Source of the DNA: Muricea muricata
Lineage: Eukaryota > Cnidaria > Anthozoa > Malacalcyonacea > Plexauridae
Assembly (NCBI GenBank): GCA_963855995.1
Contig: OY979725.1
Span: 868,001 to 932,000 of the forward strand
Length of the DNA: 64,000 nucleotides
Direction: 5' to 3'
A program made the position numbers and the translations under genes. Positions 4,701 through 47,856 of this stretch are shown here, in pieces. Numbering within the stretch: the stretch's first letter is position 1; every line of letters starts with the position of its first letter. The notes beneath the pieces were generated by a model. It made no database searches. It was not told where the DNA came from and saw only the letters and a list, made by a program, of their open reading frames with translations.

Positions 4701-7700
4701 TCATCTTCCGGGTTGAACAAGACTGTATCTCTTTACTGTTGCGTCATCTGATGACGTCACGACAACGCTTCTGTCCCTGAAGTATGAAAACATATTGTAA
4801 ACTAAGCAAGAAAGGTCACTATTAGAACCATACGAAGAAAAGTTTGAAACAGCTACAATAACAGGGGAATTGTCTCCGAACATGACTCAATTGGAAACTG
4901 CATGAATGTTTTTCCACAGGAATATGTTTTCCACCGTATAAAGAAACAAAAACTACCTCCTAACAAGAACGATATGCTGCAATTAAATAAGAACCTGTTT
5001 AAGCTAACTTCAAAAATTTAGATTCTTATATGCAGGGTTTCCTGCAGTACATAGGGACAGTCACTTCTCAGTCATTTGAATGTAACTGTGTGTCAGTAAG
5101 CAACGAATAATATTATATAAAATACTGCGTACAATTCAAGATGGGAAAAATGTTTTCGCAACTTGCAATGCAATTCTACTTTTGGGAGATGTAAAACTGG
5201 CAAATACAAATTTCCATCACAGTTTGCTAATATATACAAAACATTTGTCGCAAATTTACATCTCTTAAGAGTAGAATTGCGTTGCAAGTTGCAAGAAAAA
5301 TTGCACCGTGTGACAGGGCCTTATTGTTTACCTGCTGACTGCCATGTCTAATATGGCTGCCCTATGACCATGCCATTCTCGTTCACAGTTTCCTGACCGC
5401 GCGTCCCATAATCGTAACATCCCATCCAGACATGCTGTGTACAGAAGACAATCTTCCCAATGAAGTCGAGTAACCCCTGCCTGAACAAAACACAAGAAAC
5501 ACGTGCTCTCGTTAGCAAAGATATTCGGAAGCGAAATCGGATCGTTATATTCATGGCTGTACTCTGATTTTATACCCACAACCTGAAAAATATGCCTGAC
5601 CAACGGCAGGTATCGAACCTACGACCTTTGGAATGCTACACCCCAATGCTCTGCCAAATGAGCTATGGTAATTATGCGCAAAAAAGGAACTCATTTGATG
5701 AGAATAATTACAAAGCAAATTCTGCAATGTTTGTTTTCAGTTCCCTCAACTTAAGATGAAACAGATACAGTTAAAACAAGAGTTGTCAACCTATTCTTCT
5801 TTCTAATATATATGCCTCTAGTTTCGGCTTAAAAAGCCATTTAATTTTCAACACTTGAAACTGTTCCATATACCGGGTGTTCGCCTTGATGACGTAGCCT
5901 CTGTGACGTCACGTCCCAGATTCCGAGATTTCCAGACAACGAACCCGTTGCAATTATTGATTGTCTGAAAAGAACATAGCAGGCCACGTGATCAGCGCAT
6001 GTGATCGGAGACAATAGACGCTAATATAACCAATGAGTAAATTAATCGTTTCACAAGTCACACCGCTGAGCACTAAAATGCACGATTCATTTTTGCACAG
6101 CCGACAGTTCTGGTGTTCAACTTACTTTAGCAACTTACTTTGAACAAAATCCAACTGTCTCGATAGAGACATCATCATCTCCCTTAGCCAGTGCAGCGTC
6201 CATACTTGCAAGCACCTATACATCAAACAAAACGACCTGAATTACATATTAAAGAAATCCAGGATCATAACTGACCACACAAAATGAACGCACCTTTCCA
6301 TTCCCAATATTCGTTAGTTTGAGAACGCCATCTCCGGAACCACTAGCAAGGATTGTGTTATCGTCGTTCACGTGCAAACACGTCACCAACTGATCGTGTG
6401 CGAATCCTCCTGCAGACAAACAAAATCCGGTTAGTTCCCCTAGATGGCATTGAACTGTTATTTCCAGAGCTCAGGCAAGGGTAAATTCTTTTGAGTTTCG
6501 ACCATATGCAAGTGATGGACTATAAAGACTGTGGACTCCTTTCTGTATCATGATATACCTGTAACGTGGAACTCGTGCTTGCCGGCTTTCAGATCCCATA
6601 GTTTCAAACTTCCGTCTCCGTAACCGACACACATGCGTTTACCTTGAAAAGAAAGTGCTCCTTGGTAATTCAGAACTTGTAGCGAGTCTGTCAAGTTGTC
6701 AGCAAGTTTGCAATTCTAACTTGTTGGCAACTTGCAACACGCTTGAATGGAATATCAGACATGTTACATGGTTGTCCTGACAACTCTGACACAGACCTGT
6801 TGAAAACAAGATTGTCACACAAGGCTGTAACAATATCATTATAACATGACTATATACTACTACACATACTTGTACATATTGTAATACTTTTGTTGCTCTG
6901 AAGATGTCGCAAGTATTGCAACGAAACCTTAGTGGAACAAGGCTGGAGGTTCTATCAAGCTTGTACATGTTGTTGATCAAGGTTTGGAACCTCAAGGAAA
7001 GTGTCAATATCTTTGTTGGTTCCACATAAAGGTAATGCACGTCAAAGGGGCAGAAGAAAGAGGAGGCTGTTCCAAAACAGAGAGACTTACCGTCTGTTAA
7101 AAGATGCGAGCATGTTGTTTTTGGTCCATGACTTTGGTATGTTTTGCAAACACCATCTGGGATCTTCCACATCCAAAATTCTCCATCCGTAGTACCAGCA
7201 AACAACACATGTGTGCTGTGATGCCATCTCAACCACTATCAACCATTGTAGAAATAAACAGTGAAAAATGATCTCTTAGTATCCCTTCCTGCCTCAAAAA
7301 AGATCATTATCATTTACAAAAAATAGCTTTTATACATAATGAGTCTATACATACTTCTAAGTCTGAAACTTCAAATAACCACACTTCATCACCAGTCTCT
7401 ACCGACCATACTTTGACCAGCCCACTCATATCCCCAGTTGCCACATATTTTGAATCATAACTGAACTCAGCACGTGTAATTGAATCTTTGTGGCCTGCAA
7501 ATGATTTAATATCAATTCAATTCACTTTCTTTAATAAGTCTACAATCAGGACTGTCGAGAGTGGGGAGGGACTTGCCCCAGGCCCCCAACCTACTAGGGC
7601 CCTTAGCCTTAATTTGAGCAAGTCCACTCAAAATCAGGGCAAGTGTAATGCATCAAGGGCATCATTTAGAAGGATTCTGAACACTTTGGAGTAGTTGTCT

Positions 7701-9235
7701 ATCTGTTTTCAGTCCTGTAGTTTGAAAATATTAATAGGAGACCCAGATATACTTTTCTTTATTCTATGCTATGTAGTGTTTACAACAGAATAACATGTTA
7801 ATTAAAATACTGACAACATTTTTGAATTTGTTTCCTATACTCTGAATGAACTCAAACAACAATGTGTAATGTAAATGCAGTGCTCATTCAAAGAATAATG
7901 TAATTGTAGTGCTTATTCATGTCAGCATTGCAACAAGCTCTGATGGCAATTCCTATCATGAAGCTATTGCGATCATCATATCTTTCAGCAAATATACTTG
8001 TCTGACCATTTCAAAATGTACATATTAACCAGGTTATAGGATACAATTCCTAAAAATGGTACAAGCATTTCTATAGTGTCCAATATATTCAAGGTTTAGT
8101 GTCATATTTCTCAGTAAACATGTTAATATACCACTGCATGTAAACTTGGTTTTCCCATCTGACAATTTCCAAACATATGCCTTGTCATCTTCTCCACCAG
8201 ACACGACATGGCTGCAACTTGTGGGATCGATTGAGACACAAAATACTGATGCTAAAATTTAATGATTTTACATCACTTCAAGTGGTTTATAACAGTAACT
8301 AAATGGAATTGGCTTCATTTTAATCTGGGATACAGGTTTTAAAGCAAAGACCTTTTGAGAAGAGATGAATCTAATCAGAGTTTATCCCCATATAATATGC
8401 CTGACTATGCCATGGGCACGGGTGGGGGAAAGGCTTCCTGGAGGGAGCTATATGAGCATTGACCCCCCCCCCCATCCTACATCCATACCTTCTCTACCCC
8501 AGAATGAAAAGATATTATTGATTATATGTTACCAGTATGTTGGGAAAATGTCAGATCAGAGTCATCTGGTTCTTCAACAAATTCACCATCTGCATTTTGT
8601 TGACTTTTCTCACTGATTGGTTGGAGGTAACTTTCATCATTATCCATAGTCATCTCTTCAATGTTGTAAGCAAGTTCTACAAAAAACATAAAACAATAGA
8701 ATTAATTAACACTTCCAGGTCATCTTCACCCAATTTTCACCACTTGTTCAGACTCATATTGTCAGTAGATGGGCCAATAAAATATTTAGCAGCCTATGAA
8801 ATGACCAGTGTGTAATACCTCAAGCCAGGGTGATAATAATATACTGTAGAAATTTGTAACTGGACATATGTTGTACTCTTGAACATGTTTTCTTTGCTTC
8901 TGTTATTTTTGTAAAGTTTTCAAGTAATTTTATAGCATCACATAGAGTTGCAAACTCTATGTAGAGTCTGACATATATTTAAATGACTATTTGAATATAC
9001 AATTGGGGGTTGGTAATATCGAGGGTTGGTAATATCGGGGGTTGGGGAGGGGGTGATAGAGTCAATTGATACCACAAATTGACCCACATACCACCGATAT
9101 TGGAAAGTTTCTGCATATTTGTAACACGTGGACATATCATGCAATTTAGATACCTGAATTTGGCCCCTCATCAACCAGCACAATTTCCTCAATTACTTCA
9201 AAATTCTCTTCACCATCTTCATAAATTTCCTCCAT
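4701..9235 (-). CDS. AAMP: AAMP, angio-associated migratory cell protein homologue (WD40 repeats)
   Basis: Eleven exons join in frame to a 407-residue protein (human AAMP is about 434): 9154-9235, 8533-8676, 8132-8251, 7355-7494, 7091-7235, 6559-6642, 6294-6409, 6139-6215, 5874-5964, 5332-5480, 4701-4776. All junctions are GT-AG and the total, 1224 nt, is divisible by three. Residues 1-75 are acidic, as in AAMP. From about residue 76 a chain of WD40 repeats follows, with [61 protein letters not shown] and [14 protein letters not shown], each lining up with human AAMP, ending [14 protein letters not shown] propellers are protein-binding scaffolds; AAMP is known for roles in cell migration and ribosome biogenesis. 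The gene is head to head with TPGS1. Introns carry a tRNA-like element (5604-5685) and a hairpin transposon that almost touches the exon 10 donor. Confidence 0.94.
5141..5322. mobile_element. Hairpin MITE in AAMP intron 10
   Basis: Inverted arms carry gcaacttgcaatgcaattc (left) and its reverse near 5270-5300. The right end, tgtgacagggcc, stops about four bases before the intron's donor (read on the minus strand). The same family recurs at 14598-14717 with complete ends. Confidence 0.65.
5604..5685 (-). repeat. tRNA-like / tRNA-derived element in AAMP intron 9
   Basis: On the minus strand it has an A-box-like TAGCTCATTTGG, an AGAGCA arm and a B-box GGTTCGATACC at normal tRNA spacing. The anticodon arm is 19 nt instead of 17 with a weak stem and an oversized loop, and the acceptor stem pairs only partly (ACCA with TGGT). 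This fits a decayed tRNA gene or a tRNA-derived SINE head better than a working tRNA. Confidence 0.5.
8999..9056. repeat. Short G-rich tandem repeat in AAMP intron 1
   Basis: Three imperfect copies of a unit close to gggttggtaatatcg lie in a row, followed by a G-run. It probably arose by slippage. Confidence 0.6.
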
Positions 9236-9401: not shown

Positions 9402-11455
9402 ATGGCGGACAAAAAACCAGCGAAACAGGACGAATATTTATCGGGTTCAAGGACGGAAAAAACAGAAAGTCCGGCCGATTTTTTGGGTAGCTATTTTGGA
9501 TAGTAGACCCACTATTATACTTTACCAGCACCCCCTATTTTACCCAAATATAGCTCTGAGCACAGCTTAGTAAATTATCAAGGAGTGTAACTGAGTAAAT
9601 ATAATTGATAATTGTTTTAAATTTAATTTTCCAGCACGAGTTGGCGTTACTCGACAGATGCAAGATGTTATTTCTATAATCTTGGAGAATAGACCCGAAG
9701 ATCCCATAACATATATAGCCGAGTAGTGAGTAACGTTAAGGAATACGGACTTTTCAGTCAGTAAACAATATAATAATAGTTTAACAGTAAACAAATAAAC
9801 AATTATATTTGATATAATGCTTGTTGGATAAAAATTAAACCTAAACTTCTTCGCATTATTACATTTGATATAATATATAGTCACACTGAACTGCCACTAC
9901 TGAATAACCGAACTCTTAATTGGAACGTACATGGCGCCTAGCAACGTCTCGTCATCCTGCTTAGAAACATGACGTCACCAGATTCAGAGAAAAATACCGC
10001 AATTTGTACTGGCATGCTCAGTAGCGAAGCCAGCCCGACATTTGGTCATGCAAATGCAAATTTTTCTGTGTTTTTGACCGTATAAGGAATGAATTGCTAA
10101 AGAAATGAATGATTTAAATTTGCATAGCATGACCAAATTGTCGGGCTGGCTTCGCTACTGGGAATTCTAGGAAACAAAACACACTTTCTAGTAATTTAAA
10201 GCACTTCAAACTCATACAGTTTTGCTATTTCTTCATATAGTTTCGCCAATGCAGCTGAGCAGGTATCAGGTATTAGCCAAGCTTACCAACATTTGTGTCT
10301 GAGTCATCACAGCAAACCATCATACGAGAACAATGTCTTCAAAGCTTTCACGGTGCTGAATAAACAAAAATGCGGTCAGGGCATGAAAGGACTGACTGGG
10401 AAAGCACACAACGAACTTTTGTCTATGCTATGCAGGTTTGTCAGACATGAATTACGCAACAAATGAGGAATTATTTACCAGGAGAATTCGCTTTGAATTT
10501 TCGTTCGCTCGAAAGACGTTCCAACAACGTATTGGCACTTCATTCTTCGATGTAACAGAAGCACAGCAAGGCTGTACTAATTCAAGATAATTCCATTCTA
10601 GAGATATTGCATCAAACGAAGCAGAGACGCTGCTAAAAATGCTCCAAAAACGCGAACAAGATACGGTCGGCTTCAATGACTTCAATTCCGGTGTAACTTG
10701 CTGTTTCTTGTTCAAAGGTAAAACTGTGCTGAAAACCTTTGCAAACCACGCAAATTACCTCAGATAAAAGTACGTCTTATGGTTTTTTTACAGATTTTAT
10801 TTCGCAAGCCAAGTCGTTGTTTCAAGAATTAGATTTATCAAGCAGAGGTAGGGAATCTAACTGTTTATCACAGAAATATTTAGCCATCATTTCTATACCT
10901 TCAATACAACTTCTCTTTTTTGGCAGGTCACGCAGAGTATACACTTTGCGTTGCAATGTTATCCCAACTAACGACAACGGTATCACAGACAAACGAAAAT
11001 TCCTTTCTCAGGTAAAATAACAATTCTCAAAAACGAGACGACAAATGCAACAAAATTAAGAACAAAACCAAGCTGGTAGCCAATACTGCTGTTCAAAAGT
11101 AGTAACTGACCCGGAATGCTGGATTTACTGGAAGAACGGAAATAGGAAGTAGATAAGGTATAGTCATATACACCCGATAACTAAAAGGATATTTTCGTTC
11201 CCTAGTATTGTAGAAGCTGGGGTTTCGTTGAGCACACAAAGCATCGATACGGCGATGAAAAAGGTAAGATCTGGGGTATACCAAATATGTCTCCAAGTTA
11301 CCGTATTAACAAAAAGTTTTAAATCTTCGCATGGAATGTAATGTAGCCTATAATTTCAGGCTCTTGCCGACAGTTTCTCGCACAACACTGGAAAGACAAT
11401 CTCCTTGGACGAGTTCGTGCATCAAGCTTGCAAGATATTCTTGACAAAGGTATAG
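9402..11455 (+). CDS. TPGS1: TPGS1, tubulin polyglutamylase complex subunit 1
   Basis: Eight exons join in frame to 260 residues (human about 290): 9402-9486, 9635-9725, 10241-10435, 10602-10690, 10764-10847, 10927-11011, 11206-11263, 11360-11455. The start MADKKPAKQDEY sits in a good Kozak context (CAACATGGCGG). Family landmarks in order: ADFLARVGVTRQM, ILENRPEDPITYIAEYF, AYQHLCLSHHSKPSYENNV, LLSMLCRDIASNEAETLL, FISQAKSLFQELD and a C-terminal ISLDEFVHQACKIFLTKV. These align with human PGs1 (DFLRQVGVTEML, LEARPEEPIAFLAHYF, HLRLAHHSQ, EEFLERAAALFIAKV). TPGS1 is a non-catalytic subunit that helps target the TTLL1 glutamylase to tubulin in centrioles and cilia. The stop at 11453-11455 reads through what could otherwise be a donor, matching the human C-terminus. 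An alternative last exon at 11981-12088 is less likely. Confidence 0.91.
10019..10160. mobile_element. Hairpin MITE in TPGS1 intron 2
   Basis: The left arm begins cagtagcgaagccagcccga and the right arm ends with its near-perfect reverse (tcgggctggcttcgctactg). The arms are about 45 bp with a loop of about 50 bp. Diverged relatives of the right arm occur near 53410-53452 and 53760-53800. Confidence 0.8.
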
Positions 11456-12457: not shown

Positions 12458-15400
12458 TCAAGCTGCCGCAGATGTACAGGATGTGCTAAACCCGATAAGA
12501 ATATCTGAATAGCTGTTCTCCCAGACTGGAAACCTTACTGAACCATAGAACCAACTGCGATTATGAAATGGCAACTTCATAAACGACATTACGCGACTTA
12601 AACTGTTCACCAACACTTGAGCATCTACTGTATCATTCCCAGATAGCCCACATGTTATCCCCGAAACACATTCTGGCATTGGAGAACTAAACTGGGCCGT
12701 CATCAACGATCCTTTTCTGTCCAAAGTTATCCTATTTGTTCCACAGTTACCACAAATACTCCCATCACCAATGCCTGTATGATTGGTTAGTTCGGTTGTT
12801 TCATTCAGGTTCACACTAGGTAAATCGTTTGTTTTTAAGGCCAATAAACTACCTTGTAATCTTGTTTCCCGCTTTCTAACAGATTGTGATATTTTCAAAG
12901 AATACTCAGAATGACCTATTTGTCCGACGAATGACATCGCCGGGATGGATTTTGTGTCCGTTGTTGGCGTGCTTTTCTGAGAAAGACTGTCCTGGTTCAC
13001 AAAGCAAGCCGGAGTTGAAAGAAGTAACGCAACAGACAAGGAATAAGCCAAGGTACAACCAAGAATTGTCTGGAAAATAGAGAAGTATTTTATTCGCCTA
13101 AAATGCACAGGACCAAAGAAATTAGAGGGCATACTAGATTGTGCTAGCAGCATTCGTGAAGCCATAGGTTCGAATCCCACCGTGCGAACAATATTGAACA
13201 GTTTTTGTTTGCAATTTTAAAAGAAAGCGATGTTTTGAAATACATGTAAGCTAAAATAGTGGGTGAAATTTTAACCCAGGGTTAACGTTAAACCATCTTT
13301 GAACTACAACTGCCCCCTGGGAACCATTTCCTATTGTTACCTTTCCAGTGCTTTTGAAATATTTGGTAAGGAAGTCCTGGAACATTGAATTTTCAAAAAA
13401 TGTGCTCATGTCCAAATAAGAATACCAGCCACGTTCTTCGCCTTGATCTAACGCCACCCTAAAGATTTGATATTGAATATCTCAATGATATTGCAATCAC
13501 TAATAATCAAAATTGGACGATGGAATGAACTGAACAGTGATCATTTACTCTACCTTGTTTCAACCTTATTAACAAACTCAAAAAATTCATCGCAGCTTAC
13601 AAATATTCTCCATTCCTAGTGAAATTAAGATGAAGCAGAATGCATGTTACAATACAGTTTTTACTTCTGTTTTCTTTTCATGTTTATGAAAGAAAGAAAC
13701 AGAAAAATCGCTGTGAACAAGCTTTAAGATTCGAAAACACACTTACAATTGAATGCAAAAATTCTCGTTCCAATCGGTTCAGATCACGAATGTGATAATT
13801 GCCTGGTTGATTTTCCAATAAATAAAAATATAAGTACACTACAAGCTACAATAGAAATATTCCATAAAAATGACATGTTTTCAGACCTGCTTTAGACCAG
13901 TCATAGTTATATGCGTCATCATCTTCACCATCATCGTAAAGATATTTAGAGGCGACAAGCTAATTAAAGAACATTGGTTTGTAAGTGAGTTTAAATGACC
14001 GTAATGAAAAAGATGGCGGATGTCCATTTTACCAGAATGCATTGCAGTCATGAAACATTTCAAAAACCAAATCGACATCTATTGAAGGACAAACATAACA
14101 GAAGAGGTTATTTTCTTTGTTTTGTTGGAGTTATATGTCTTTAGGTGTTTTCAGCTGGTTTAGTTTGATTCCGGCAATGCATTCTGGTAAATGGTCAACG
14201 TTATGGTCAATTGTTAATTGTGATTTTAGTTGATTTCACTGCAAAGAAAGGCAGTCATAGCCATAGACGCAAGCCTAGTAACCTGAGACATACCATCGAG
14301 ACTATGAAGAGGTCCGAGGGCGATACTTTCTTAAGGTAGTTTGGATTACTTTGGGCAAGTCTTTCAGCATACAAGATTCCCATCATCAAAGCACAAGGCG
14401 AGATTCTGGCGCGTCTACACAATTCAACAAGGAAAACAGCTTGAAAACCAAACTTCAGAAACACCATGTTTATCATGCAAAGTACATGCCATGCATGCTC
14501 TTTTGTATTCTGTTTCCTTTGTATTCTTTATCACATTTTTCCAAATCTTGGGCACCACATTTTTAAAAGTCAGATGCAAAGATCCATTACAGTCATAAGG
14601 GCCTGTCACATGGGGCAATTTTTCTTACAACTTGAACACAATTCTACTCTTATACTCCCAAGAGCAGAATTGCATTGCAAGTTGCAAGAAAAATTGCACT
14701 GTGTGACAGGCCCTTTAGCATGCATTGTATTTTAAACTCCCACACTTGTGTTGGCAAAACAACCACATTTGAAAATAGTCCATACAGTTTATACCGTCAT
14801 TACCTTGTTATCCTAGCAGCCTGGTGTTTATCGAGTGTTTTCTTGCCACTCGTTTTGGAATTAATCAATCTGACTGCACAATCTGAGTAATTAAACAATG
14901 TGTAAATCATCCCTGACAAAAAAGATTGATACCCCGCCCACATAGGAAATTTCTTTCATCCAGGGAGGAGGATAGGAGGGGAAATGGCTTAAGAAAGTCT
15001 TAAAGCTCTGTGGGGTGTGGGAGGGGCATAGATCTATTCTGGAGTGACCCAATAAAATACCTTGTAATTTTCAACATCTTCACAACAGTTTTGAAAAATA
15101 TCCAGTTGTTTCCCTGCAAGGTGATTTCCCTACCAGTCATTTTGCTACATATGAACTATATTTGCAACACATGCAAAGTTTCTAGGGTTAGAGTAGACGA
15201 CTTGTGTGTGTAGCGAAACAACTTGTAGCAAAATGGCTGTAGCGTAACGATCACAATTCTCGGAAAATGCCTTTACCTGTTGCAATAGGTGACGGCAACG
15301 ATCCGTCAGAATATTTCCCATAATACAGTGTTTTCCTGAGTCGTTCTTGAAATTTCTTGTGATTGTTCATGTAGATCTAGTCATACACATAGAAGCTTTG

Positions 15401-22739: not shown

Positions 22740-23222
22740 ATTTTTGTCTTGTCATTCCATGCCGATCGCGAGAAACAATTGCTTTCGGGGTTCGGTATCT
22801 CTCAAGCGAACACTGCAACATACTACGAAGCCCATAATTTGCAACGTTTTCCAATCATTTCCCCGAAATAACGCCTTGGCGCTCGTCTCGGTAAACAAAC
22901 GGTTTATCTTCGGGCGTGTATCACTCAGGGCAAACCATGTTTCCAACCGTGCGAGTGAAGTCTTAAAACAATTACATGCAATTAACTAATCATAGGTTTT
23001 ATTTATAATTATTTGACGTTTTGAGAACGCCCCGCGAGGGCACAATTAAAGAAAGAGAATCGGCGAGAGCGCAAACAGAACTCACTAAATATCAGCACAA
23101 CTCGCGACAGTGCCGAAAAGTAAACGCATTTCTAGTGGTGATAATAAGCGCGCTTCTTTGATAAGCTCATCAGATAGCGGGCAATCTTTTTGGAGGATCT
23201 GAGATAAGAGAACGTGTAAACG
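22740..23222 (+). promoter_or_regulatory. Promoter/5' UTR region of the first Wnt6-like gene, shared with its paralogue
   Basis: About 480 bp are homologous to the reverse complement of 34897-35330. The last roughly 170 bp before the ATG differ at only a few positions between the copies. Both keep CTTTGAT at 23156-23162, a match to the Tcf/Lef consensus, immediately overlapping GATAAG. The transcription start was not identified. Confidence 0.6.
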
Positions 23223-31316: not shown

Positions 31317-31476
31317 ATTAAGACAGTACGATACATACATTAAATAAATTATTACATTTGTTACACATAGTGAAAATCAATAAGCACGCATCTACTTCGT
31401 GTAAGATTTACTGAAACGCACAAATACAGCTGACAGTTTATATCTTTTCTACATACTCTAGTATGTTTAATTTGCT

Positions 31477-34400
31477 TTACAAGCACAAATGAATATTCTT
31501 GGTCTCTTTGCAAGGCTGACATACATAAGAACAGCACCATTGGAATTTGCACTTACACAGCGTTTCTACTGTTTTATAATCACTGCGATAGCCTCGGCTA
31601 CAGCATAACAAATCACATCCATCAACGTCCAACGAGGTGCTATTACATTCGCGTCCAACTGTTCCGAGCGAGCCAACTTTGGAGTTCTTCGTACAAAAAT
31701 CTGGGGAGTCCTCGTAATAGATTAGGTCGGCTTTTGTCGGTTTTTTGTGCTCTTTGTTTACGGGAGTAAAGGTTATTTTTCGCCCTGGACTGTTCTGTTC
31801 CAGTTCGACACGAGAAGCTCCGTCAAATTTGCCTTTTAACATGTCCCCTACTTTTTCGAATTTCGGTGCTGCATTCCAGCACGTTTTCTGTGTACATACT
31901 TGGGAGGGACCATGACACGTGCACACGCGGGACATGTTGTCTTTTACGGCCTAGAAATTCAAAAAGTTTAAACTTAGGACAGTATTCTGCAGTCTCTCCA
32001 GCAATAAAATCTATTTTATTTGATAACTGTGTTAGTTATAAAAGGTTATCAAAAAACATTACCAGCAGAAAATTTGATAAATTCCAAGAAAAAATATACT
32101 CCAAAGAATAACATCTTGTAAACTCAAGATTCAAGCTTTTAAAACAAGACAACAATATTTCGGTGATATTTCGATTCTATTTCAAAGTCATTGTCAAACC
32201 ATGACTTAATTTTACAATGACTTAGAAATGGAGTTGAAATAACGCCGCAACATTGTTTTCTTGCTTTAAAAGCTAGAACCTTGAGTTTACAAGATGTTAT
32301 TCTTTTGAGAACGTTTTTTCTTATAATAGGTTAATGTACTTAAAAATTCAAAAATCTTAAAAAACAATTTATCATACTTATATAAAGGGTTATTGTATAC
32401 ATGGTATGCTATATTACGTTATGGCATGACATGGTATGGTATGCTATGCTATGCTATGCTCTTTCATCAAAATAAAACAGTTAATCAATTCCCCTACGGA
32501 AAAACACAATGGAATATCCTTTGACCAGTTAGCGAGTCGTGAACTTAAAAGATAGAAACTTCTCGAACAAGTTCGTGCTAATGATCACAAAAGTACTCGT
32601 TCTGCTAGGTTGCACAATTGGTAACATACGTGACTCATGTTGAACGCGTGAATTACCTCCGCTGGGGAAATTTCTATAGAGTAGCGATATCAAGGTTTAA
32701 AAGAATTTTCTCGATGTGTTGTTTTCCCTATAGTTACGTCAGAGGAGTGACATCTGCCTTGTAATTTTATTCAGTATTTATGAACTCCAGCTGATATTCT
32801 TGCAAATGTATTTACGTTTCATTGTTTCTGCTGAAACCATAAATTGACCTATTTCTTATTCAAGACAGCTTAGTTATAAACAAAGCTGTTCTCCAAGTGA
32901 AATCGACTCTAACCAACACTGAATCAAAAAGGCAGGTGTTTTCTGTTACTAATCGGCCACATTTCGTTGCCGCAATTCAAGTCCATATGATAAAATCAGT
33001 TACTGATAAGATAGTACTCGAATTGACACATATCTTTAATAAATGAATGAGAATTGTGATAAGCAACGATATTCGCTTGAAAGTTGTTTGAGGTGAGGTG
33101 AAAATAGATGAATCCTGCATGTATGAATGGAGCTTGTATCGGCTTACGTTTATCAAGCAGTCGCGTTTTATGAGTTCCTATCAGTTCCCAATTATACCGT
33201 ACGCCAATTAGCAAAAGATGTCTTAAAATGATAATCTAGCTATTTCGTCATGGCTTCGTGGGCGTTTTTCGAGAACAGGATTGCAGTACTGATTGTATAT
33301 GTATCTTATTTGTCTTTTATTTATATCAGTGCTTTTGGGAAGCTAATGGGACAATGTTACAACCGACACATTGAAATGTTGTCTCCATATTATAACATAT
33401 TACACCACATTATAACATATTACACCACACCACACCACACCACACCACACCACACCACACCACACCACACCACACCACACCACACCACACCACACCACAC
33501 CACACCACACCACACCACACCACACCACACCACACCACACCACACCACACCACACCACACCACACCACACCACACCACACCACACCACACCACACCACAC
33601 ACCACACACCACACACCACACACCACACACCACACACCACACACCACACACCACACACCACACACCACACACCACACACCACACACCACACACCACACAC
33701 CACACACCACACACCACACACCACACACCACACCAATCTGATCCCAAAGCTTGTATTAAGCAAAACGGATATAAAAAAGCTTAGAGCTTTCATACCCTTC
33801 GTCCAGCTTCATTGTTGCGCATATTAACACGAGCACGGAAGTCGCTATATATCTCGGCTGCGTTAACAAACTTCCTTGCAAAGTTATCTCCAAATCGAAC
33901 ATTGTCTCCACATCCACCCCACTGCCATCCCACATTGATTTGTTTGCTCGGGTTGTCACATCTACAGGACTTCAGACTTCCTTTTGCGCATGACCGGGAT
34001 ATGGAATGGCTGACCGCTGCCGCAGTGATCGCGTACGCAAATGCCGTTTCACGACAAGCTAAGAAAGAAATAAAAATATGAAATATTTATAACGAATGCA
34101 TGTGCTACCAGGGAAAAAAATGCCCGAAAGAGTCATTGATCTTCAGAGAGAACATAGATGGAGTTGTCACGCAGGTAAAACTAATTCATTCAAACTTTCT
34201 TCTAAAGCTTAACACAACAAGTGTTGATTACATGTAATTGCTGTTCACCTCGCTCTAAAACTGGACCGAAGACATTGTACGGACTTGTGACAGAGCAATT
34301 CCATTTTCGATCCTTGAATTGTCGTTGGCATTCTTTGATGGCCACGCTCGCTGCAAATGTGATCGTTTCCATGAGAACGGGTGTTCGGTTTTTCACGATG

Positions 34401-34896
34401 CTGCGTTGTTTCTCCGATAAATAAGAACTGAGTATACTTATCGGTCCTTGTGCGCCGTCCTGTGTCTTCTGGACCATCACTGCAACCCTGTTGGTAAAAA
34501 TGAGAGTTTAAGATAGGACAGCGATCTCGACTGACACAGAATTTTCAGGAATAGTTGCAGAACAATGATTAATTTGAAGCAGCTGAGAGAAAGAGATTAT
34601 TTTTAGTCAACTACGGATGTCATAATATTTCGCAAAGTCATTTCACCTACATTTCATCTACACAGCGCACAACAATCCAGTTTAGGATTGCAATGATATT
34701 TAGAAATGAATTCTTCACTCAGGAAATCAACTACATTTTACCCTACATTTTTAGAAACGTTATCTAATATCGTTAGAAACCATATCTAATATTATATCGT
34801 TACTTTTTCAACTCACCACCAGTATTTAGTAGCCTCAATTAAGATCGGCGATAGTGTAAAAAGGAAAAGTGTCAAAGCTTTTAAAATAACCGTCAT
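31477..34896 (-). CDS. Wnt6: Wnt6-like secreted signalling protein (copy 2)
   Basis: Four exons, 34817-34896, 34249-34487, 33796-34058 and 31477-31950, join in phases 2, 1 and 0 to 351 residues. The signal peptide is almost identical to copy 1 (MTVILKALTLFLFTLSP). Exon 2 has ECQRQFKDRKWNC; exon 3 has ACRETAFAYAITAAAVS, WQWGGCGDN and NNEAGR; exon 4 has CTCHGPSQVC, EDSPDFC, GCDLLCCSRGYR and NIHLCL. The hairpin differs from copy 1 and from the Wnt norm: CKC has become CTC and proline precedes the conserved Ser210. Copies 1 and 2 are nearly identical over 31644-31851 but clearly diverged in exons 2, 3 and the start of exon 4. All splice sites and frames are intact, so nothing suggests a pseudogene. 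Intron 2 is only 190 bp, against 2.5 kb in copy 1. Confidence 0.93.
32086..32323. mobile_element. Inverted-repeat MITE in intron 3 of the second Wnt6-like gene
   Basis: Arms begin aagaaaaaatatactcc and share aacatcttgtaaactcaag with its reverse near 32283-32305; the inner part is AT-rich. Relatives: 51479-51592 (short complete palindrome), 40880-41060 (degraded) and a fragment at 63938-63970. Confidence 0.8.
33421..33735 (-). repeat. (GGTGT)n and (GGTGTGT)n satellite in intron 3 of the second Wnt6-like gene
   Basis: Read on the transcript strand, about 19 heptamer units are followed by about 36 pentamer units of GGTGT (plus strand: ACCACAC then ACCAC). It lies about 60 bp after exon 3, the same place as the GGTAT tract in copy 1. 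It yields false cysteine- and threonine-rich ORFs on both strands. Confidence 0.97.
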
Positions 34897-35330
34897 CGTT
34901 TACACGTTCTCTTATCTCAGATCCTCCAAAAAGATTGCCCGCTATCTGATGAGCTTATCAAAGAAGCGCGCTTATTATCACTACCAGAAAGGCGTTTACT
35001 TTTCGGCACTGTCGCGAGTTGTGCTGATATTTAGTGAGTTCTGTTTGCGCTCTCGTCGATTCTCTTTCTTTAATTGGGCTCTCGCGGGGCGTTCTCAAAA
35101 CATCGAATATAAATAAAACGCATAATTGGTTAATTGTATCAAGACTTCACTCGCACGGTTGGAAACATGGTGTGCCCTGAGTGATACACGCCCGAAAATA
35201 AATCGTTTGTTTACCGAGCTAGCACTAAGAACGTTATTTCGGGCAAATTATGGGTATCGTAGTACGCTTTGGTGTTGTTTGACCATTTCAGACCTGTACA
35301 AGGTGTTTATAAAGCCCGCGCTTCGTAAAA
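34897..35330 (-). promoter_or_regulatory. Promoter/5' UTR region of the second Wnt6-like gene
   Basis: This is the inverted homologue of 22740-23222, near-identical over about 170 bp next to the ATG and more gapped further out. The CTTTGAT Tcf/Lef-like site is kept (plus-strand atcaaag at 34957-34963). ORFs on either strand here are not supported as genes. Confidence 0.6.
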
Positions 35331-37838: not shown

Positions 37839-40800
37839 TTAGCGACACGTATTAACTGTCCTCTGGATATGACATGTTTTACACTTCACCGAGCAACACC
37901 AGTGAAAAACACAGTCGCAGTACTTCTCGGACCGCTCTATGCTCGTTTTGTAATCTCTTCCACAGCACATGAGGCCACAGCCGTCCGTATCCTTCGACGT
38001 CGCGTTGCAATATCGTCCTTTTGTGCCTAACGAGCCCACTGCCGGGTTAGGTTCACAAAATGATGGCGCGTCCGTCGTGTACACCAGATCCTCGGCCGTC
38101 GGACGCTTCATCGCCTCGTCGTGATGGAAAGTCTTGCCTTTGTTCCCAAAAGAAACCTTGGACGCGGAGTTGAAACGTTCTCTCAAGACTGAACCCAGCC
38201 GGCTGAATGTAGGCAGAACAAGCCAGCAAGCCTCTTGTGCACACGTTCCACTGTATCCAAAACATTTGCAATTCTTCTTCATGAGCTTGCGCAAAGCCTG
38301 AAAACATGACGGAATATATATATATTGCAATATAATTCTAGACGTGATGTTAATGTTCATGGTAACGCTAGTTAATAGTCTAGTTTGCATGCTTGGTATA
38401 CGAATTACTTTGCAATATAAATTCATACAAGCTTCAATCACGAAGCAGACGTAACATCATCACTCGAACCAGATCGCGATAAAACCTCTCGCCGAGTACT
38501 GAGTTCTCGGTGGTGCAGTGATAGCACGCTTGTTTAGAAACTAAGAGATGCCGGCTTGGTGACTCAGAATACTTTCTGACTAATAAAGCTTGAGAGCACA
38601 TTATTCATATATATTATTCACTAAAGGGATAGTAATTTACAAGTAACAAAGCTGCCACAATTAATAATATTCGTTTCATTTAGGTTTTCTCCTCTACTGT
38701 ATAGCAAGACTAAATTATGCAGGGGGGGGGTGTTCTGGCATCTGTTCTCTCCCTGTGCTTAATGCATTTTTCTCTAGGTACTCTAGTTGGATGGTTAAAC
38801 GGTCATCAGCATTCTCACTTTCAAATGTCCCCACATAAAAACCACTATATTTAGTAAAGTCAACACTAAAGGGAGCCTGTAGGAAGATGTTCCAATTTAG
38901 ACATCCGCCACAAACGAAGGTTACTTGGGGAAGATTTGGGAGTGACAGCTAGCCAAGGTTAATAACGTACGCAAGCGATTTTCCAGACGCGTGCTATGCT
39001 AATCGAAACAGCATATGCGGCACCCAAAATAGTGATATGATGATGAGAAATAAAAACACTTCCTATTATTTGCACAATGCGACGTTGAATGTTATCAGAG
39101 ACGATTCCGGCACTTCGGGTGAAACCTTGAAGGCTCAGTTGCCTTGGTTGCTGATCTCTCCTACCATTATGCCCCTGCACCGTTCTTCCTTGGAGGCAAT
39201 TATCTAGGGTTACCCCTCTATCTCCAAGCAGTAAAAAACTCGTGAAACTGGTTTCCATAAAAGAAAACTGATGCTTGATAGATACGGTATGGATACTGGG
39301 AGAAGACACTCGATATCTAACAGGTAAAATCGGAGAGCTTTTCTGTATTCAATTTTTACCTTCATAGCTCACACTAATGTTCCAGTTAATGCAGGGACGA
39401 AAAAACTCAAACAAAAGCAGACACTTATGGTATCTACACAAACGAATAACAGGGGCTACGAGATTCCAAATATCGTAAAATGCGTACTAAATTATATTCA
39501 GACAACTATATTTGTGTATGCGAAGTGTTGGTTTGCTGCCTATCACTATTAAGGCAACGTCCCACTTATATGAACAAGGTGCTTAAATTTTAATAAGCTT
39601 GAAAGAAGCATATTGAAAGTGGATTAGGTCCAGAGCAGGAAATTGTAAAGAGCTCTATGTGTTTATTTAAAGGACATTTTAAGTGTGGTACCGGAAAGAT
39701 GTCTAGTCGAATTGTTTTGAATTGAAATAATGCGAGAATATGATAAAAACAGATGCAGGGTAAAAACGTCACGGATTCACGCATGACAACCGGACTTTGT
39801 AGTTCAAAGCGTTGTACTTAGAATCACAGGGTCACAGGTTCATTTCTGACGGTGATCTAGTCTTCTTGTCTTTCTCATATAGTTCTATAAGCATTGTAGC
39901 GCAATGTTTCCTCGAAGTTTTAATTCAGGAAACCCGAAACCTCTTAAGTGAAGAACCATTTAGCAAGTCAGATGGGTTGTGGAGGAGTACAGAAATGGAA
40001 TCACTTTCAGTAGCCGTGCCTTAAGAAGATAAAGTCCTTTAACCTTTTCCGTAGAAAAGATCAAGAACAAGGCAACTTGAACGCATATTCTGCCTATAAA
40101 TCTAATCGAAACTATAAACACTCTGAGGTTTCCGAAGCTTAGTGAATTCTCCGCCAATCCCAAGCAACCTGTCAACATTCCTCGTGGACGACGAAATTAG
40201 CCATTATTACTATATATAGCAAAAGGTGTGGGCAGATATGAAAGAGCTATATGTTCCATCTTTAGTCTAACAAACGAAAGTTAAATCAGAAAAGATTTTC
40301 AAGCCGTTTCGTGAGTGGAAAGAATAAATCTTAAAGCACATTAGTTTCGGTATCAACGCATCTCCTCCTAGTTGTAAAATTACAAGCGACACTTAAAAAA
40401 CCATTGAGAGTATGCTATCTGTGCATATCAATTTGTCATGGCTTTTAATCCTGGCCGTTGGAGTCCACGAAGCATTACGATATCTAGTCCCATGCGCGGG
40501 GCAGATAAGTAAATAATTTCTGGAATTCATAGCGGGTGGAGAGTAATTTCAAAGTTTAAGTGTCATTACTTGATTAATTCTATCCTCAAGTTCAGCACGC
40601 CCATCAATGTTTGTGAAATTACTCAGCAAAAAATTCAATGATTACCTCAAGAGGGTGAGAAAAGATCCGCGATAGATGAGCAATGTTTTTTCAAAGATTA
40701 TTTACAATGTAATTGGATAGCAGGATGAGAATAGTATCGTGCAATTATGGAATCACCAGTGTCAGCATTTTTCAACAATGTCAATTTACTAAGACGCTCT

Positions 40801-43800
40801 TTTCCGGAAATGTGACAGCGCTGATACCATAAGAAGTAGCTTTTAGAATGCCCTTTTCAACAAGTTCCCAAAAGAACTAAGAAAAACAAAATTTATAGTG
40901 GTAATATTTCCACTCTCTTTCAGGGTTATTGTGAAACCAAACTGGTGACCCTGAAATGGAGTCGAAAATCACCCCTATAATTTCTTGCATTTAAATAGCT
41001 CATATCTCGAGTTTACACGATGGCACTATTATTCGGGGTTTTTTTCCTCACATTTTTTACGTACTATTTAACATACGAGCAGGAGTGCTTTATCAAAGCA
41101 CGAATTGCGAGTATTTTAAATAGCTTCAAAAACGATCCATTTTATACCCATCTTGTCAGTTTGTTTGCGAAAGAATTTTCGCAATCAATGTAAATGTTGT
41201 ATAAGCCGAGAAATTTGAGGCAAAAGTTTTGTGAAAATACACGTGTGCTTTTATCACATATAAAGACACTACCACGGTTGTGATTTTCTTTGTGTTTTGC
41301 TCATGAATTATAAATGAGTTTTTGAAACTTTATTTACACTCCAAGCACAGGATAACTAGTATGTTTCTAGCTATGTTTTAGACAGTAATATCCAAACTAC
41401 TTTTCTCAACTGTCTCTGATTTTCGACGATACATGTGCAAGCCCCCTCTCCAGATTAAAACACATACATAACGATTCATTAGTTTCGGTTGCCATAGAGT
41501 ATTCTAATAAAACACAAAACAATAGGCACTCCGAAAATGGTAAACATTTTTATTCTTTACGTTTCAACTTTACATTTAAGTCATCTTCTTCTTCTGAAGA
41601 TGACTTAAATGTTAAGTCGAAACGTAAAGAATAAAAATGTTTACCATTTTCGGAGTGTCTATTGTTTTGTGTTTTACTGACGATTCATTAACCCTTCATG
41701 ACGGTTTATTTTCGAACAAGTTATGCTCATCTAATTCCTTCGTTGGAGAAATGATTGACAAGATAACCAAGTTCTAAGTTAAGATAAGATCTTGAAATTT
41801 TCACAATATGAATTTGTTTTCGAAACTTTAGCTTCGCCATTTCCACATCCCTTCCGTAAACAGGTGAAAATGTGTCCAAGTGGTGACGAATCAAGGAACT
41901 TAATGTTGTTTAGTGAAACGGTTGTTTTCTTAACCAAAACATGTTTTCGCTCCAACATGAAACAACGATAATCTGATACTAACATATTTTTTTAACCACT
42001 TGCTTCTTCCTTTCTAAGAACTTAGTCTGAGAATTATCTTGAAAAACATGCGTCATACACCCTTATTGACAGACGTTTCGGAGAAAGAAAACAGAACTGA
42101 TATAGTATTTTAACATCTGTTGGGCGAGGTCAGTCGTTCAAATCCTGGATGTCATGCTACAGATGCAAAAAATGATCCTACTGCCCTCCACCTGGTACTC
42201 GACAAAGAGAAAGTGGAGTAGGAAGGAAGAGAGGGCGTGCAATGGATGAGTATCCCATTAAGGGGTGGGGAGTAGCTATACTATTGCATGTTTCACACTA
42301 CATGGCCTTTTATCCACGTCCCTGCACGGCAATGAGATAGCAACGGGCAAAATGTTCAAATTTCTGACACCTTGAACAGTCACCGTCAACTGTTCTTGAA
42401 CAAGCAGACATATAAACCAGGGGCCGGTTGTTCGAAGCCAGTTTAGCTTAAACGGGGGTTAAGCTCAAAATAGAAACCAAGTTTATAGATTCATTCAACA
42501 ACCAAACTAAAAGTTTTGAACCTTAATAGAATGATTATGCTTACAACAACATATTTACGGCAAAATATTTAAGTTAACTGTTTAACGAGTGATGTAAGAG
42601 TGTTACTTAATTTTGACTTATCCACCGTTTACGCTAAACGGGCTTCGAGCAACCGGCCCCTGAAGTAAAGAAACAAATCTTTTCACTCCATGTTTCAACG
42701 ACTGACCCAGTATAGAGATGGAAGCATTGGAAGTTTTGAACTATTCATTAAGGCGAGCAACGCTAGTTTACGGCGAACTCCGATCTTACCTTTCGGCCAG
42801 CTTCGTAATTCCATCGTGTCAGTTCGGTTCTGGCATCAGCGACGGCATTCTTATCCGTGAAGACGGTTCGCGAGATTTCCTCGCCATAATCAATATTTCT
42901 GTCGCATGCGCCCCTCTCGTGAAACCGTTCAGAAATCTGCCTGTTGTGAATCTCTCTGGAAGCTGGGGTCATCCCCTCGCGATATTTGAACTTGTCACAC
43001 TGGCACATGGACAGATCACCCAATGAACATGCGCGACTCACGACAAACGTCACCCCAGCAGCCCTGATTGCCGATAAGAATGCTGATTCCCGAAAATCTG
43101 GAAAGCAAAAATAAACATTTTTGAATACGAATATCTATTCAATAAGTAGAAGATAGAATTACACGGACAAGATAATTGCCTAAAAACATCAGGAACCGGC
43201 TGGTTACAGCAGTAGCAGAAGGGAGCATGATAGAGCTACACGACCGAAATTTTAAGTTGTTTAAGGTTGTTGAAAAGTGAAAACAGGACGTAATAATGTT
43301 GTTGGGGCAACAATGTTCCTGGTTGGCAACAATATAGGCAGAGTGCCAATAAATTCTTAAACTTAGGTCTGTTATTTACCAGGAATGTTTTAAACACATG
43401 ACTCTGCGCAATTGTTATGTTAGTCAAAGAGTGAGCGCAAACAAGTCTAAATACACAAGAAGTGAATGTATTTTTAAAGGATAATCAATCACGGCGACAC
43501 GAGAACAAACACAAATGTTTTTGGTTGTGTTTCTTCTGTATCAAGATTAGACTTGGTGTTTGCACTTTGTCAAAAAGGGCGCGAGCAAACGTTGACATAA
43601 GATATGACTTAGACGATTTCTCCGTCCGCTCATGTGCTGCTGACAACGACACTATTTGTCTTGGGCGATAGACACCTACGCGAAAATTCAGTTTATTTAT
43701 CAGTGCTGAGCACATGCAGTTATTTGAAACCAGTTTGGCTTAAACGATGAATAAAACAAATTTAAATCACACTCTCATGAATTTATCTTGTAAACGACTG

Positions 43801-46800
43801 AAGTTTTAACCATTACATATGCAGTCACATAGATTGATGTTCTTTCCAGTTCGAAATATTTTTATTTAGTTGTTCATTGAGTGCATATTGAAATACATGG
43901 ATGATATGCAACTATTCGCCTCAGAAGGATTATATGCACCTACAAGTTTAACAATTTCACAGTCAAAAACGAAAACAGTGTTTGTTGTGAGAGAATGAGA
44001 ATTCAAATTACTTCAAGTAAAATTTCATTTACGACCTCACGGAATTTTATGTGTTTTCTAGCGCTAATAAATTCTATGTCATTTGGTTGAATTTTTTCCA
44101 AGCTAATTAACACTTAGGAATGTAAACCTGTTAGACTCCACGCCCATTTTAGACGACACAAACTTTCATATTTATACGTGACAAGACGAGCCAATAAAAA
44201 CGCAATTTGAGTCCATTGATAATGTTGCCAAATTGTAACCCACGAGCCGAGAGTACCGCGGAGTCTTGGAGAGCTTAACGCGATACCACGCTGGTATTTA
44301 ATGATTAGCAATTTGCAAATAAATGCCAGAAGATTACACAAATTGTTTTAGTGTACGGGATATCTCCATGATCAATGATTCGCTTTTGTTGAAGATGATT
44401 CGTTCGCGATCATGTAATACACGACCGCCTATAGTTTGTATTGTTTCAACGTGTCACAAGATTGCTGGAAGCTTCCGAACTTCTTAAACAAAGCTTTACG
44501 TTATTATTAAAATCACAAGAATACAACGGTTGTATATTTTGCCACCACAGATAGCCATTCAAAATAATTGTAAATTGAATAGGACGTCCTTTGCATTATC
44601 TCAAACTCAGTACGTACAGTTGCCATGCAGTACACGAAAGATATAGGCTCTTTCACTATACGTGAAACGATAAAGCAGAATGATTCGACAAACTAACGTC
44701 CCCATCGAATTCAGGTAGTGAAAGACGACAGTGTTTTTCAATCATCCCATTAACTTCGAATTGCTATATTAATCTGAGTAAGCTTTTGCCCGAATTTAAT
44801 TAATTGACAAAATCTGAGGAGATTATATCACACCTCAAAATCCATTCCAAATACATGCCGCGTCGTCTTTCATTATTTACAAGGCACTGATTGTAATTAT
44901 TCTACCTTGTAACATTCGCGTGTGTGTTCAAAGCTCTAATGAACTTAACAGCTAATATCGAAATCTAATTACCATTTTTTTCATACACAGGTCGTGCTTA
45001 ATTAGCCTTAATTTAGTTCGTACTCCATATCCTTCATATTTTACAGTCGATGGGCAACAGATGACAATTACATCTTAGGACGATGCCGTTACATTAAATA
45101 AACAGAATTTGCATACTCTCGTACGTTTACAATTGCCACTGGCTAGCGTTCATGAATCGCATATGGCCACCTTTCGAAACACTTTGATTTGAAGTGATTG
45201 CGCACATTGTACATCTTCCACAAGCTTTCCGGCTTTAGGGTATAAAAGCGACAAAATCTAATGGGATTAAAACAAGATGATAAGAAACTTTGTGTACATG
45301 TTGTCGATAATGGTGTAAAAATATGCTTTCGGTAAACTTTCCGATAAAGCGGCGACAAAACGCATGAAATATTTCGCTGGACAGCATTGCGCGAAAACCT
45401 GGACTCGTGAGAACGCAATATTCAGGATCGAATAGCTGAATTTCAGAGTTCATGCAATAATAGTCAAATCGAGTAATCCAAATATCTTTCAACGTTGAAA
45501 GCGGATTTGAAAACTAATTCTTCCGACTTGTTAAGATTGTGGGAAATATCTTTAAGAATTATCTCTCATCGTTTAGTTACTGGATTAAAAATTTTATCCA
45601 AGTCTTCCGTGGTGAAATTTCTTTCTTAAATTAACGCATGGAACCATTTCAATGGCAGAAAATAAGGCCACTCCTTCGTAGTACAGAGTTCATTTAAAAA
45701 CGTTTCCAAATTTTGAGCGCCCTACTTTGCACTGTGGTACAGACGGACGCATTGTTTAGTTGAACAACAGTTGAGGAAGATTTCTGAGTCCAAGTCTTAA
45801 CTCCGTTTTCAAACAGTGTTCAAATTTTTCCGTGCGCGCAATATTGTACAAAGCAAGCAAGATGGGCTGGGCGGCTAGATAAATAATTACCGTGTAAAGC
45901 TGATTCATATCTGGGTAAAATAAATACACAAGAACAAGTCAAGCTTTTTGTCGAAGCCACAAATGTATTTCTCTTATGTCATGCATGTTTAACACATCCG
46001 TTTGTCACGATTCACAAAGGAAATTCAGGTCAACAATGTTTGAATTAAAATAATTCCTACTTCAAATTGAAGACGTTTTCCGCTTGTTCGAGAATAAACC
46101 GTAGGATTTGAGATTTAAATAGGTAAATATTGCAATAAGCTCTTTGAGCCGTCTGAAGGGGTTTCGAAGCGATTATTTTAGGACGGATTTGAAACGAGCA
46201 CGTTTAGGAGCCTTCTAGTGTGAGCACCTTGCCAAAACTGGCTTGTCGGCGGAATTTCGCGAGAATTCGCCCTGGCAAATCGACACTTTAGAGAGGAAAT
46301 CGGTGCTTTGCTGTGCTAAAAAATACTGACAAAGCCGACGGAAGTGTAGTCAAAAACGTCCGTTGAAAGAAGTGCTCGAAAATTTCAGTAAGAATTTACC
46401 TTTTACCACAAAAGCCTAAGTAAGACGATTAGATGTGATATTTCGTACAGTGCTCGTTAATTGACACATACATGTAACACTTAACTGACAAAAGAAATAC
46501 TTCAGGGGTGCAGATGCTGCCGAGAAGTTTTGTCTGAAAAGACTATTTCCAGTTTAAGTAACTAAAGCGCTCGTCGAAATGTTAAAACAACTGCGAGAAA
46601 ATCTTTACGCATGGTATTATTTACGTCGCGAGCACTTGACTTTAAAATTTTACAAGGTTACGTTTTGAATTGAATAATAACAACATTCACGGCAGTTGTA
46701 CAGACGTCCGATCGTTTAGATAGTACAGACTATATATAGTCCTGACTGATGTTGAAAATGTGGCTATAACAACATATATTTGTTAAATCATGGAGATAAA

Positions 46801-47856
46801 CGAAAACTATTGAGCTACCGGCTATACGCTTGTCATTTTAGAACTGGCACGCAAAATGAAAGCTCCCTCATTTTTAGTGCCTGTACAGGTATCGTCAAAA
46901 TAAATAAACTTTCGTGAAAATCCAGACCTACTTGAAAGCCGACAAACTCGCAGTTACGTACACGACTACAGCACACGTCAAATTGATATTCTACAGTCTG
47001 GCTATAAACCATCATGGATTAACCGTGATAAACTTTAGGCTCAAGTGCTTCGCAGATTCTATGTTGTGCGAATTTATTCGACGATCTCAGTGAAAGCTGA
47101 CTGCCAGCTTAGAGTAGCCAAGAGCGCAAAGTTTAAAAGAAGAAAGTGTTCGCGTTGATATGTAAGCTATCAAGATATTCATTACCAATAAATATAAAAT
47201 GCCGCCTCAAAATCGCACACTTTGATGTTTACGCATGAGAATTAATGTTCAATAAAGACTTCATTAGCGGAAAAATTAAAGGGAAAATTAGAACAAATAA
47301 ATCCGGTAGGAATTGCGGGAAATTATCGTTAGAATACCGTAAACCTAACATGGCGAACACAACATACCGTAGCGCATGATCTTCTCAATTGAATCATTTT
47401 TCTCCGTGCAATTCCATCTCCTGTCTTTGAACTGGTTCTGGCACTCTCGCAGAGCGACGACTAAACCTCTCATGACGTGTCGCATCACTTGCGGTTGTGT
47501 TCGACAAATATCATTTCTCCGACAAATACTGTTGCGGCTAAATCGCAGAAATCTACGAAGAAAATGCACAGAAACTAAGCAGAATCCCACGGCCAGACAA
47601 GACACAGCGTGCTGACTATTGCTTTCAGTCATGATGAAACATTTCATTCATATACAAGTATCACGTTATATGATTTATAACGCGATACACATTGCACACT
47701 GTGGGAGCAACGTGTATACAATTGTACAAGCAATAACACTGGGTCGTACTGCATGTACCTTCGAAACGAATAGCCGTACCTGCTAAAAGAATAGCCATGA
47801 TTGTCCGTAAACAGCAGCGAGCAAATAAACGCAACAAGGAGGTGTCTAGCCTTCAT
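37839..47856 (-). CDS. Wnt10: Wnt10-like secreted signalling protein
   Basis: Four exons, 47780-47856, 47368-47552, 42790-43097 and 37839-38297, join in phases 2, 1 and 0 to 342 residues. The signal peptide is MKARHLLVAFICSLLF. Wnt landmarks are ALRECQNQFKDRRWNC, DFRESAFLSAIRAAGV, ACSLGDLSMCQC, NYEAGRK, the hairpin CKCFGYSGTC, RERFNSASKV, GSLGTKGRYCNATSK, DGCGLMCCGR and the end VNTCR. FRESAF, ACSLG-L--C-C, DGCG-LCCGR and a VN-C end are typical of Wnt10, so I assign it there; Wnt4 is the main alternative. Exon 3 keeps the cysteine but not the tryptophans of the W-WGGC motif (it reads ERGACDRN), and the hairpin has Phe instead of His in CHG. The serine is Ser206. Introns 2 and 3 exceed 4 kb each. 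An upstream in-frame Met at 47901 exists, but the chosen start gives the better signal peptide. Confidence 0.9.
38500..38575 (+). repeat. tRNA-derived SINE-like fragment in Wnt10 intron 3
   Basis: ggtggtgcagtgatagcac at about 38508-38528 resembles a Ser/Leu-type tRNA D-arm (A box). A clear B box does not follow, so this is a fragment. Confidence 0.35.
40880..41060. mobile_element. Degraded relative of the 32086-32323 MITE
   Basis: It shares, in order, an attgtgaaacca-like segment, aaatggagt and a tail ctcgagtttacacgatg with the element at 32086-32323, but the terminal arms are decayed. Confidence 0.4.
41482..41679. mobile_element. Hairpin MITE with flanking 11-bp direct repeat in Wnt10 intron 3
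   Basis: Arms of about 75 bp are near-perfect inverted repeats (aaaacacaaaacaatag and ctattgttttgtgtttt), with a centre at cttcttcttctgaag. The sequence acgattcatta occurs at 41471-41481 and again at 41680-41690, which looks like a target-site duplication enclosing the hairpin plus about 27 bp of left flank. Confidence 0.8.
42418..42662. mobile_element. MITE with GGGCCGGTTG termini in Wnt10 intron 3
   Basis: The left end caggggccggttgttcgaag matches the right end cttcgagcaaccggcccctg inverted, with one mismatch. The interior is AT-rich with no ORF. The right end lies about 130 bp from exon 3. A half-copy may exist near 43720-43745, and the tandem repeat at 62397 starts with the related gggccggt. 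Confidence 0.85.
43098..47367. other. Wnt10 intron 2
   Basis: This 4.3 kb AT-rich intron shows no exon and no clear transposon apart from a decayed ttgttgaa-type sequence at 43250-43340 related to the hairpin at 577-792. Small ORFs here lack context. Confidence 0.6.

Follow-up and report, generated by a model that had tools for sequence, protein, structure and literature searches.

Are AAMP and CNPPD1, two genes listed near WNT6 and WNT10A in a mammal, kept beside Wnt genes in an octocoral as well, and was such a linkage inherited? The question arises from a stretch of 64,000 nt of the Muricea muricata genome (hereafter the window), in which a sequence-only reading had placed AAMP, TPGS1 and CNPPD1 beside two Wnt6-like genes and a Wnt10-like gene, and had seen in them an ancestral linkage group. 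With moderate confidence, we explain this locus as the octocoral version of the eumetazoan Wnt1-Wnt6-Wnt10 cluster, with an inverted Wnt1 twin, still joined to AAMP and CNPPD1. Own-genome searches covered the assembly of 453,007,491 bases in 74 contigs, of which C10 (13,900,795 bases) carries the window.

Four Wnt genes and their subfamilies

Four wnt domains lie within 35 kb of the window (Table 1), with Pfam E values of 8.5e-116 and 1.4e-107 for two similar genes (twins A and B), 1.2e-91 for a third (X) and 1.9e-85 for a fourth (Y). All four cover the wnt profile from position 4 or 9 to 304/305, splice in frame, have their intron positions in common and encode 22-25 cysteines each. Twin A starts with a signal-peptide-like segment, and a signal-peptide exon was not found for Y. 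The two close relatives and the third Wnt gene of the sequence-only reading thus stood, but Y had been overlooked, and a cluster ending at 47856 is too short since Y lies outside it at 55.3-57.7 kb. Across the assembly, 51 exon matches could be grouped by us into about 17 Wnt genes; a search of prokaryote genomes returned no Wnt relatives.

Subfamilies were assigned using maximum-likelihood trees with 15 references (14 human Wnts and fly wg), a larger tree that added 10 further Wnts, all distinct, from the same assembly, and approximately unbiased (AU) tests on 20 sequences. With the 15 references, the twins stood beside WNT1 and wg (support 70/78), Y grouped with WNT10 (91/89) and X lay weakly near WNT10 (86/63). 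In the larger tree, the four window Wnts grouped with WNT1/6/9/10 apart from the 10 other Wnts (95/53), none of which grouped with WNT1, while X and Y stayed near WNT9/10 at low support (Y with WNT10, 53/65). The AU tests returned trees equal to the best for the twins with WNT1 and for Y with WNT10; Y with WNT9 lay 1.6 log units below the best tree and Y with WNT6 13.9 (p 0.053). For X, no partner was rejected among WNT6 (2.6 log units below), Y (3.5), WNT9 (4.1), WNT10 (5.0) and WNT1 (8.1). Three pairings were rejected, namely the twins with WNT10 (p 0.018), X with the twins (p 0.012) and Y with WNT4 (p 0.020). Imposing Wnt1, Wnt6 and Wnt10 in this order cost 2.6 log units (p-AU 0.46).

Both N-terminal cysteines are absent in the twins and present in X and Y. 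Among the references, the pair is missing in WNT1, wg and WNT8A (3/15), and from these references we take its absence to be a mark of Wnt1; because WNT8A, only distantly placed in the trees, also lacks the pair, the mark is not exclusive to Wnt1. The twins end in -CL, as do WNT1, wg and WNT6. These characters favour Wnt1 for the twins, which appear to fit it better than Wnt6. For X, Wnt6 is slightly preferred to Wnt10, making it the most uncertain member of the order, and Y is best read as Wnt10, for which it is the best candidate in the window. Trees, AU tests and twin characters together make the gene order Wnt1-Wnt1-Wnt6-Wnt10 likely.

Several results speak against these names and for a rival scheme that calls the twins Wnt6 and X Wnt10 and explains the missing Wnt1 by loss or relocation. 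Joining the twins to WNT6 cost just 3.8 log units (p-AU 0.50), a value that allows the other name, and the larger tree paired them with WNT6, at 21/34 inside a WNT1/6 group holding at 93.7/82. Applied in full, the scheme fell short of the best tree by 8.9 log units and was likewise not rejected (p-AU 0.16). However, WNT6 carries the cysteine pair that the twins lack, Y makes a better Wnt10 than X, and another Wnt1 is not apparent among the 10 further genes of the larger tree. We consider this naming improbable and set it aside as first choice; as it is the naming of the sequence-only reading, both "two Wnt6-like" for the twins and "Wnt10-like" for X are probably wrong.

The twins are convergent and sit in the two arms of an inverted duplication. 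Across 351 codons, the ratio of nonsynonymous to synonymous divergence (dN/dS) was 0.25. Exon 3 had a synonymous divergence (dS) of about 1.03, compared with 0.16 for exon 1 and 0.24 for codons 256-285, a stretch in which the two proteins are identical; the scan ran through these codons, and in its next interval synonymous divergence was zero. Noncoding parts of the arms are in places up to 97% alike and elsewhere near 71%. We read the twins as an old inverted duplication that was presumably patched by gene conversion, with both copies under purifying selection. We reject an assembly copy, given a dS of up to about 1 (exon 3) and an overall dN/dS of 0.25.

Similar pentanucleotide arrays occupy the same intron of both twins (window 26776-27106 in A, 33422-33735 in B), with different units in gene orientation, TGGTA in A and GGTGT in B. 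A 136-nt inverted pair, 96% alike, lies at 16354-16489 and, in the inter-twin spacer, at 31170-31305, and is likely a dispersed repeat.

At the predicted Porcupine acylation site, the twins and X have Ser and Y has Thr. A serine is usual at this site and not universal, with Drosophila WntD as an example without it (PMC3202554). In this genome, 5/14 distinct Wnts have another residue at the position matching Ser209 of WNT3A: Thr in Y and in the genes at C3:1.805 Mb and C3:47.66 Mb, Cys in a Wnt4-like gene on C5 and Leu in the gene at C1:19.23 Mb. A literature search on S209 retrieved no matching paper. The C1 gene with Leu is one of four related Wnt genes on that contig (17.34, 18.03, 18.73 and 19.23 Mb), about 0.5-0.7 Mb apart, three of which are nearly identical and stop at the same last-exon residue, two with TAA and one with TGA. 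An isolated and highly divergent last Wnt exon (C3:47654614-47655111) lies close to the gene at C3:47.66 Mb.

AAMP, TPGS1 and CNPPD1 and the comparison with mammals

AAMP, TPGS1 and CNPPD1 together occupy 4.7-15.4 kb of the window, where tblastn with human proteins confirmed all three. The AAMP exons matched one after another on the minus strand (best E 3.6e-30), with 71%, 63%, 49% and 46% identity in the best pieces. Its composite is also colinear with yeast Sqt1, which we take to be the yeast AAMP (E 5.5e-24, residues 57-385 of 411), a match that does not rely on the human sequence; designed propellers and WDR5 outscore Sqt1, as is usual among WD40 proteins. For TPGS1 (best E 8e-5, two pieces 37% and 41% identical), the name was also backed, independently of the human protein, by a Pfam match to TPGS1_C (11.35-11.45 kb, 23.8 bits, E 3.8e-5) that falls short of the cut-off of 27. 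CNPPD1 gave a best E of 2e-11 and 49% and 56% identity in its two best pieces. Pfam returned Cyclin_N alone for it, below the cut-off (E 0.092), and a second scan nothing, so that this putative identity is based on the match to the human protein. In the own genome, 4/4 matches of the CNPPD1 pieces fell on C10, all at the window locus, and viral contigs held no CNPPD1 relatives.

We take AAMP, WNT6, WNT10A and CNPPD1 to lie on human 2q35, and TPGS1 presumably lies elsewhere in human, away from any AAMP/CNPPD1-Wnt linkage. In pig, the interval SSC15 120,747,942-121,885,708 lists GPBAR1, AAMP ... WNT6, WNT10A ... CNPPD1 (PMC12071171), amounting by our count to 46 protein-coding names over 1.14 Mb, or 44 without the two Wnts, and overlapping SSC15 intervals contain the same genes (PMC9593086). 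The mammalian co-location claimed by the sequence-only reading is thus seen in the pig list. Taking 20,000 genes, the post hoc chance that at least two of the three non-Wnt neighbours fall in this pig interval is 1.4e-5; under a liberal post hoc count of any 2/15 neighbours over four Wnt loci, both assumed numbers, it is about 2e-3. It is therefore unlikely that AAMP and CNPPD1 both came to lie beside the Wnt cluster as in pig by chance, and because pig lists both with WNT6 and WNT10A within 1.14 Mb, their linkage looks ancestral. We hold its inheritance to be rather probable.

To this comparison of one octocoral sequence with pig gene lists, we added a search of the own genome, by Pfam family, for seven other genes of the pig region (six from PMC12071171, ARPC2 from PMC9593086). 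None had its match on C10 (0/7). Best matches for five lay on C2 (ATG9A at 4.06 Mb, CDK5R at 57.1, ARPC2 at 53.6, DNPEP at 59.8 and hedgehog, which also matched on C8, at 66.2), for CNOT9 on C4 and for BCS1L on C15. For a contig of 3.1% of the assembly, 0/7 has a probability of 0.80 by chance, whereas 5/7 on C2, a large contig of at least 66 Mb judging by these positions, has one of 0.001 at that size and of 0.02 if it is as long as C1. The octocoral locus is therefore not a miniature 2q35, and on these seven genes we reject a literal 2q35 block. Of the proposed ancestral linkage with non-Wnt neighbours, the part concerning AAMP and CNPPD1 is supported by its low chance probability, and the wider block is not. 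Either AAMP, CNPPD1 and the Wnts made up a unit of their own, which was joined to another group in the vertebrate line, or part of the match is due to chance.

The strongest alternative shares the inherited linkage with our explanation and adds nothing that enforces closeness: the genes would belong to one ancestral linkage group, represented by C10, that vertebrates mixed with a second, represented by C2. The five best matches on C2 and their low chance probability are what a vertebrate merger would give, and sea anemones keep macrosynteny and little microsynteny (PMC10719294). In contrast, both AAMP and CNPPD1 lying within about 20 kb of the cluster on a 13.9-Mb contig is not expected from it, and we regard this alternative as a real, if lesser, possibility. 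Coincidence, with AAMP and CNPPD1 reaching the Wnt cluster separately in the octocoral and vertebrate lines, would agree with 0/7 other genes on C10, with a TPGS1 that is not known to have such linkage in human, and with a match noticed after the fact, but two of three non-Wnt neighbours inside one 1.14-Mb pig interval, even at the liberal estimate, make it improbable.

Table 1 Features of the window (window positions except in the first row).
Feature	Position	Strand	Structure or remark
Studied window	C10:868001-932000		64,000 nt of Muricea muricata contig
AAMP (WD40; human AAMP / yeast Sqt1 type)	~4701..9235	minus	~ten short exons by eye
TPGS1	~9625..11452	plus	four or more exon matches; divergent, head-to-head pair with AAMP
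CNPPD1 (cyclin-like)	~13254..15382	minus	matches 15382-15317 (weak, E 0.18), 14443-14291, 13959-13885, 13457-13377
Inverted duplication, left arm	22851..29833		holds twin A
Wnt twin A (Wnt1-like)	23223..29712	plus	exons 23223-23302, 23732-23979, 26453-26724, 29239-29712; 357 aa
Inverted duplication, right arm	31389..35254		holds twin B
Wnt twin B (Wnt1-like)	31477..34896	minus	exons 34896-34817, 34487-34249, 34058-33796, 31950-31477; 351 aa
Third Wnt (X)	37839..47856	minus	exons 47856-47759 (proposed), 47552-47368, 43097-42790, 38297-37839; 349 aa
Fourth Wnt (Y)	55279..57739	minus	exons 57739-57433, 56634-56375, 55767-55279

Host and flanking sequence

The ancestral reading had been made conditional on a cnidarian host, and the mitochondrial contig C74 (19,292 bases; cox1 by Pfam, E 6e-157) identified an octocoral. 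Open reading frames (ORFs) read by eye placed nad1 on one strand and cox2 and atp6 on the other, an order agreeing with that of octocorals. In addition, C74 holds a 987-aa ORF with MutS and HNH domains, and tRNA-Met was the only tRNA found by the standard search, a permissive mitochondrial mode adding Tyr and Leu. We take a mitochondrial MutS, a single tRNA-Met and this type of gene order to be octocoral marks. A second cox1 copy with one TAA was detected by Pfam in the nuclear assembly (C1:38414782-38416095) and is probably a nuclear mitochondrial insert.

No tRNA was found in the window with a bacterial model. Pfam scans, which covered all six frames of 1-4.6, 16-21 and 58.5-63.5 kb and, for 48-55 kb, the three frames of the minus strand, returned nothing above the curated cut-off (best sub-threshold match Med14_C, E 0.022). 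An inverted repeat at 63075-63358, with 128-nt arms 80% complementary around a 28-nt loop, is perhaps a small transposon. Right of the cluster, C10:932-992 kb carries GPCR-like ORFs in tandem as well as a homeobox-like ORF, all named by eye.

Known Wnt neighbourhoods and a possible regulatory block

A Wnt1-Wnt6-Wnt10 cluster is already reported from a coral, Acropora, in a paper that also gives Wnt6 as absent in the medusozoans examined and Wnt9 as absent in cnidarians (PMC6441219). In Daphnia the order is Wnt9-Wnt1-Wnt6-Wnt10, and Lottia has a very similar arrangement (PMC3003278). The window likely has these Wnt1, Wnt6 and Wnt10 subfamilies, in matching order, but its Wnt1 is an inverted twin and X is too divergent for a sure name. 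Unlike in Daphnia, no window gene grouped with WNT9 alone, although X or Y with WNT9 was not rejected; this agrees with the reported cnidarian absence of Wnt9.

Gene neighbourhoods from the cnidarian-bilaterian ancestor are few, with 162 new blocks inferred there (PMC8851819). Among known cases, the Wnt5-Wnt7 block with fbxl14 and atxn10 has been read, in the same paper, as a regulatory block, and likewise joins Wnts to non-Wnt neighbours kept across phyla, which supports a regulatory reading. It differs in its Wnts and its neighbours, and in our case the evidence for conserved neighbours comes from a single octocoral and from the genes listed for pig. The mammalian WNT6-WNT10A locus resembles the window in having AAMP and CNPPD1 in its neighbourhood, in pig (PMC12071171) as on human 2q35, but takes up about 1.1 Mb and includes dozens of further genes, compared with 53 kb in the octocoral; TPGS1 presumably lies elsewhere in human, and none of the seven other locus genes sought matched C10. 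In our literature search, which left most subscription papers outside, an AAMP/CNPPD1-Wnt neighbourhood turned up only in two pig association studies (PMC12071171, PMC9593086), and the link may already be in print elsewhere.

Gene content, gene order, host and the linkage in common with pig are direct observations, whereas the subfamily names and the inheritance of the linkage are interpretation; selection on Wnt regulatory DNA would be a plausible cause of this linkage. Under our explanation, Wnt1 would have been duplicated within the cluster as an inverted, partly gene-converted pair, and the linkage would persist because Wnt cis-regulatory DNA lies between or inside the neighbour genes, so that breaks would be selected against; the Wnts would be the targets and AAMP, TPGS1 and CNPPD1 bystanders. 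Some points weigh against this explanation. Many genes and about 0.3-0.6 Mb presumably intervene in mammals, the seven other mammalian neighbours are not on C10, and in sea anemones no topologically associating domains (TADs) were detected and microsynteny is poor (PMC10719294), which weakens the reading as a regulatory block. We consider a regulatory cause, as opposed to slow passive decay, doubtful. Still more so, a regulatory block of AAMP, CNPPD1 and Wnt1/6/10 that predates the cnidarian-bilaterian split and is kept together by the Wnts, with most tested mammalian-region genes on another octocoral chromosome, seems unlikely.

Should the linkage fail elsewhere, the locus would serve as a warning on synteny claims drawn from single genomes. 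If true, a small Wnt1/6/10 block would offer a directly testable regulatory constraint without TADs, and the AAMP/CNPPD1-Wnt neighbourhood hints at an origin before corals and bilaterians split.

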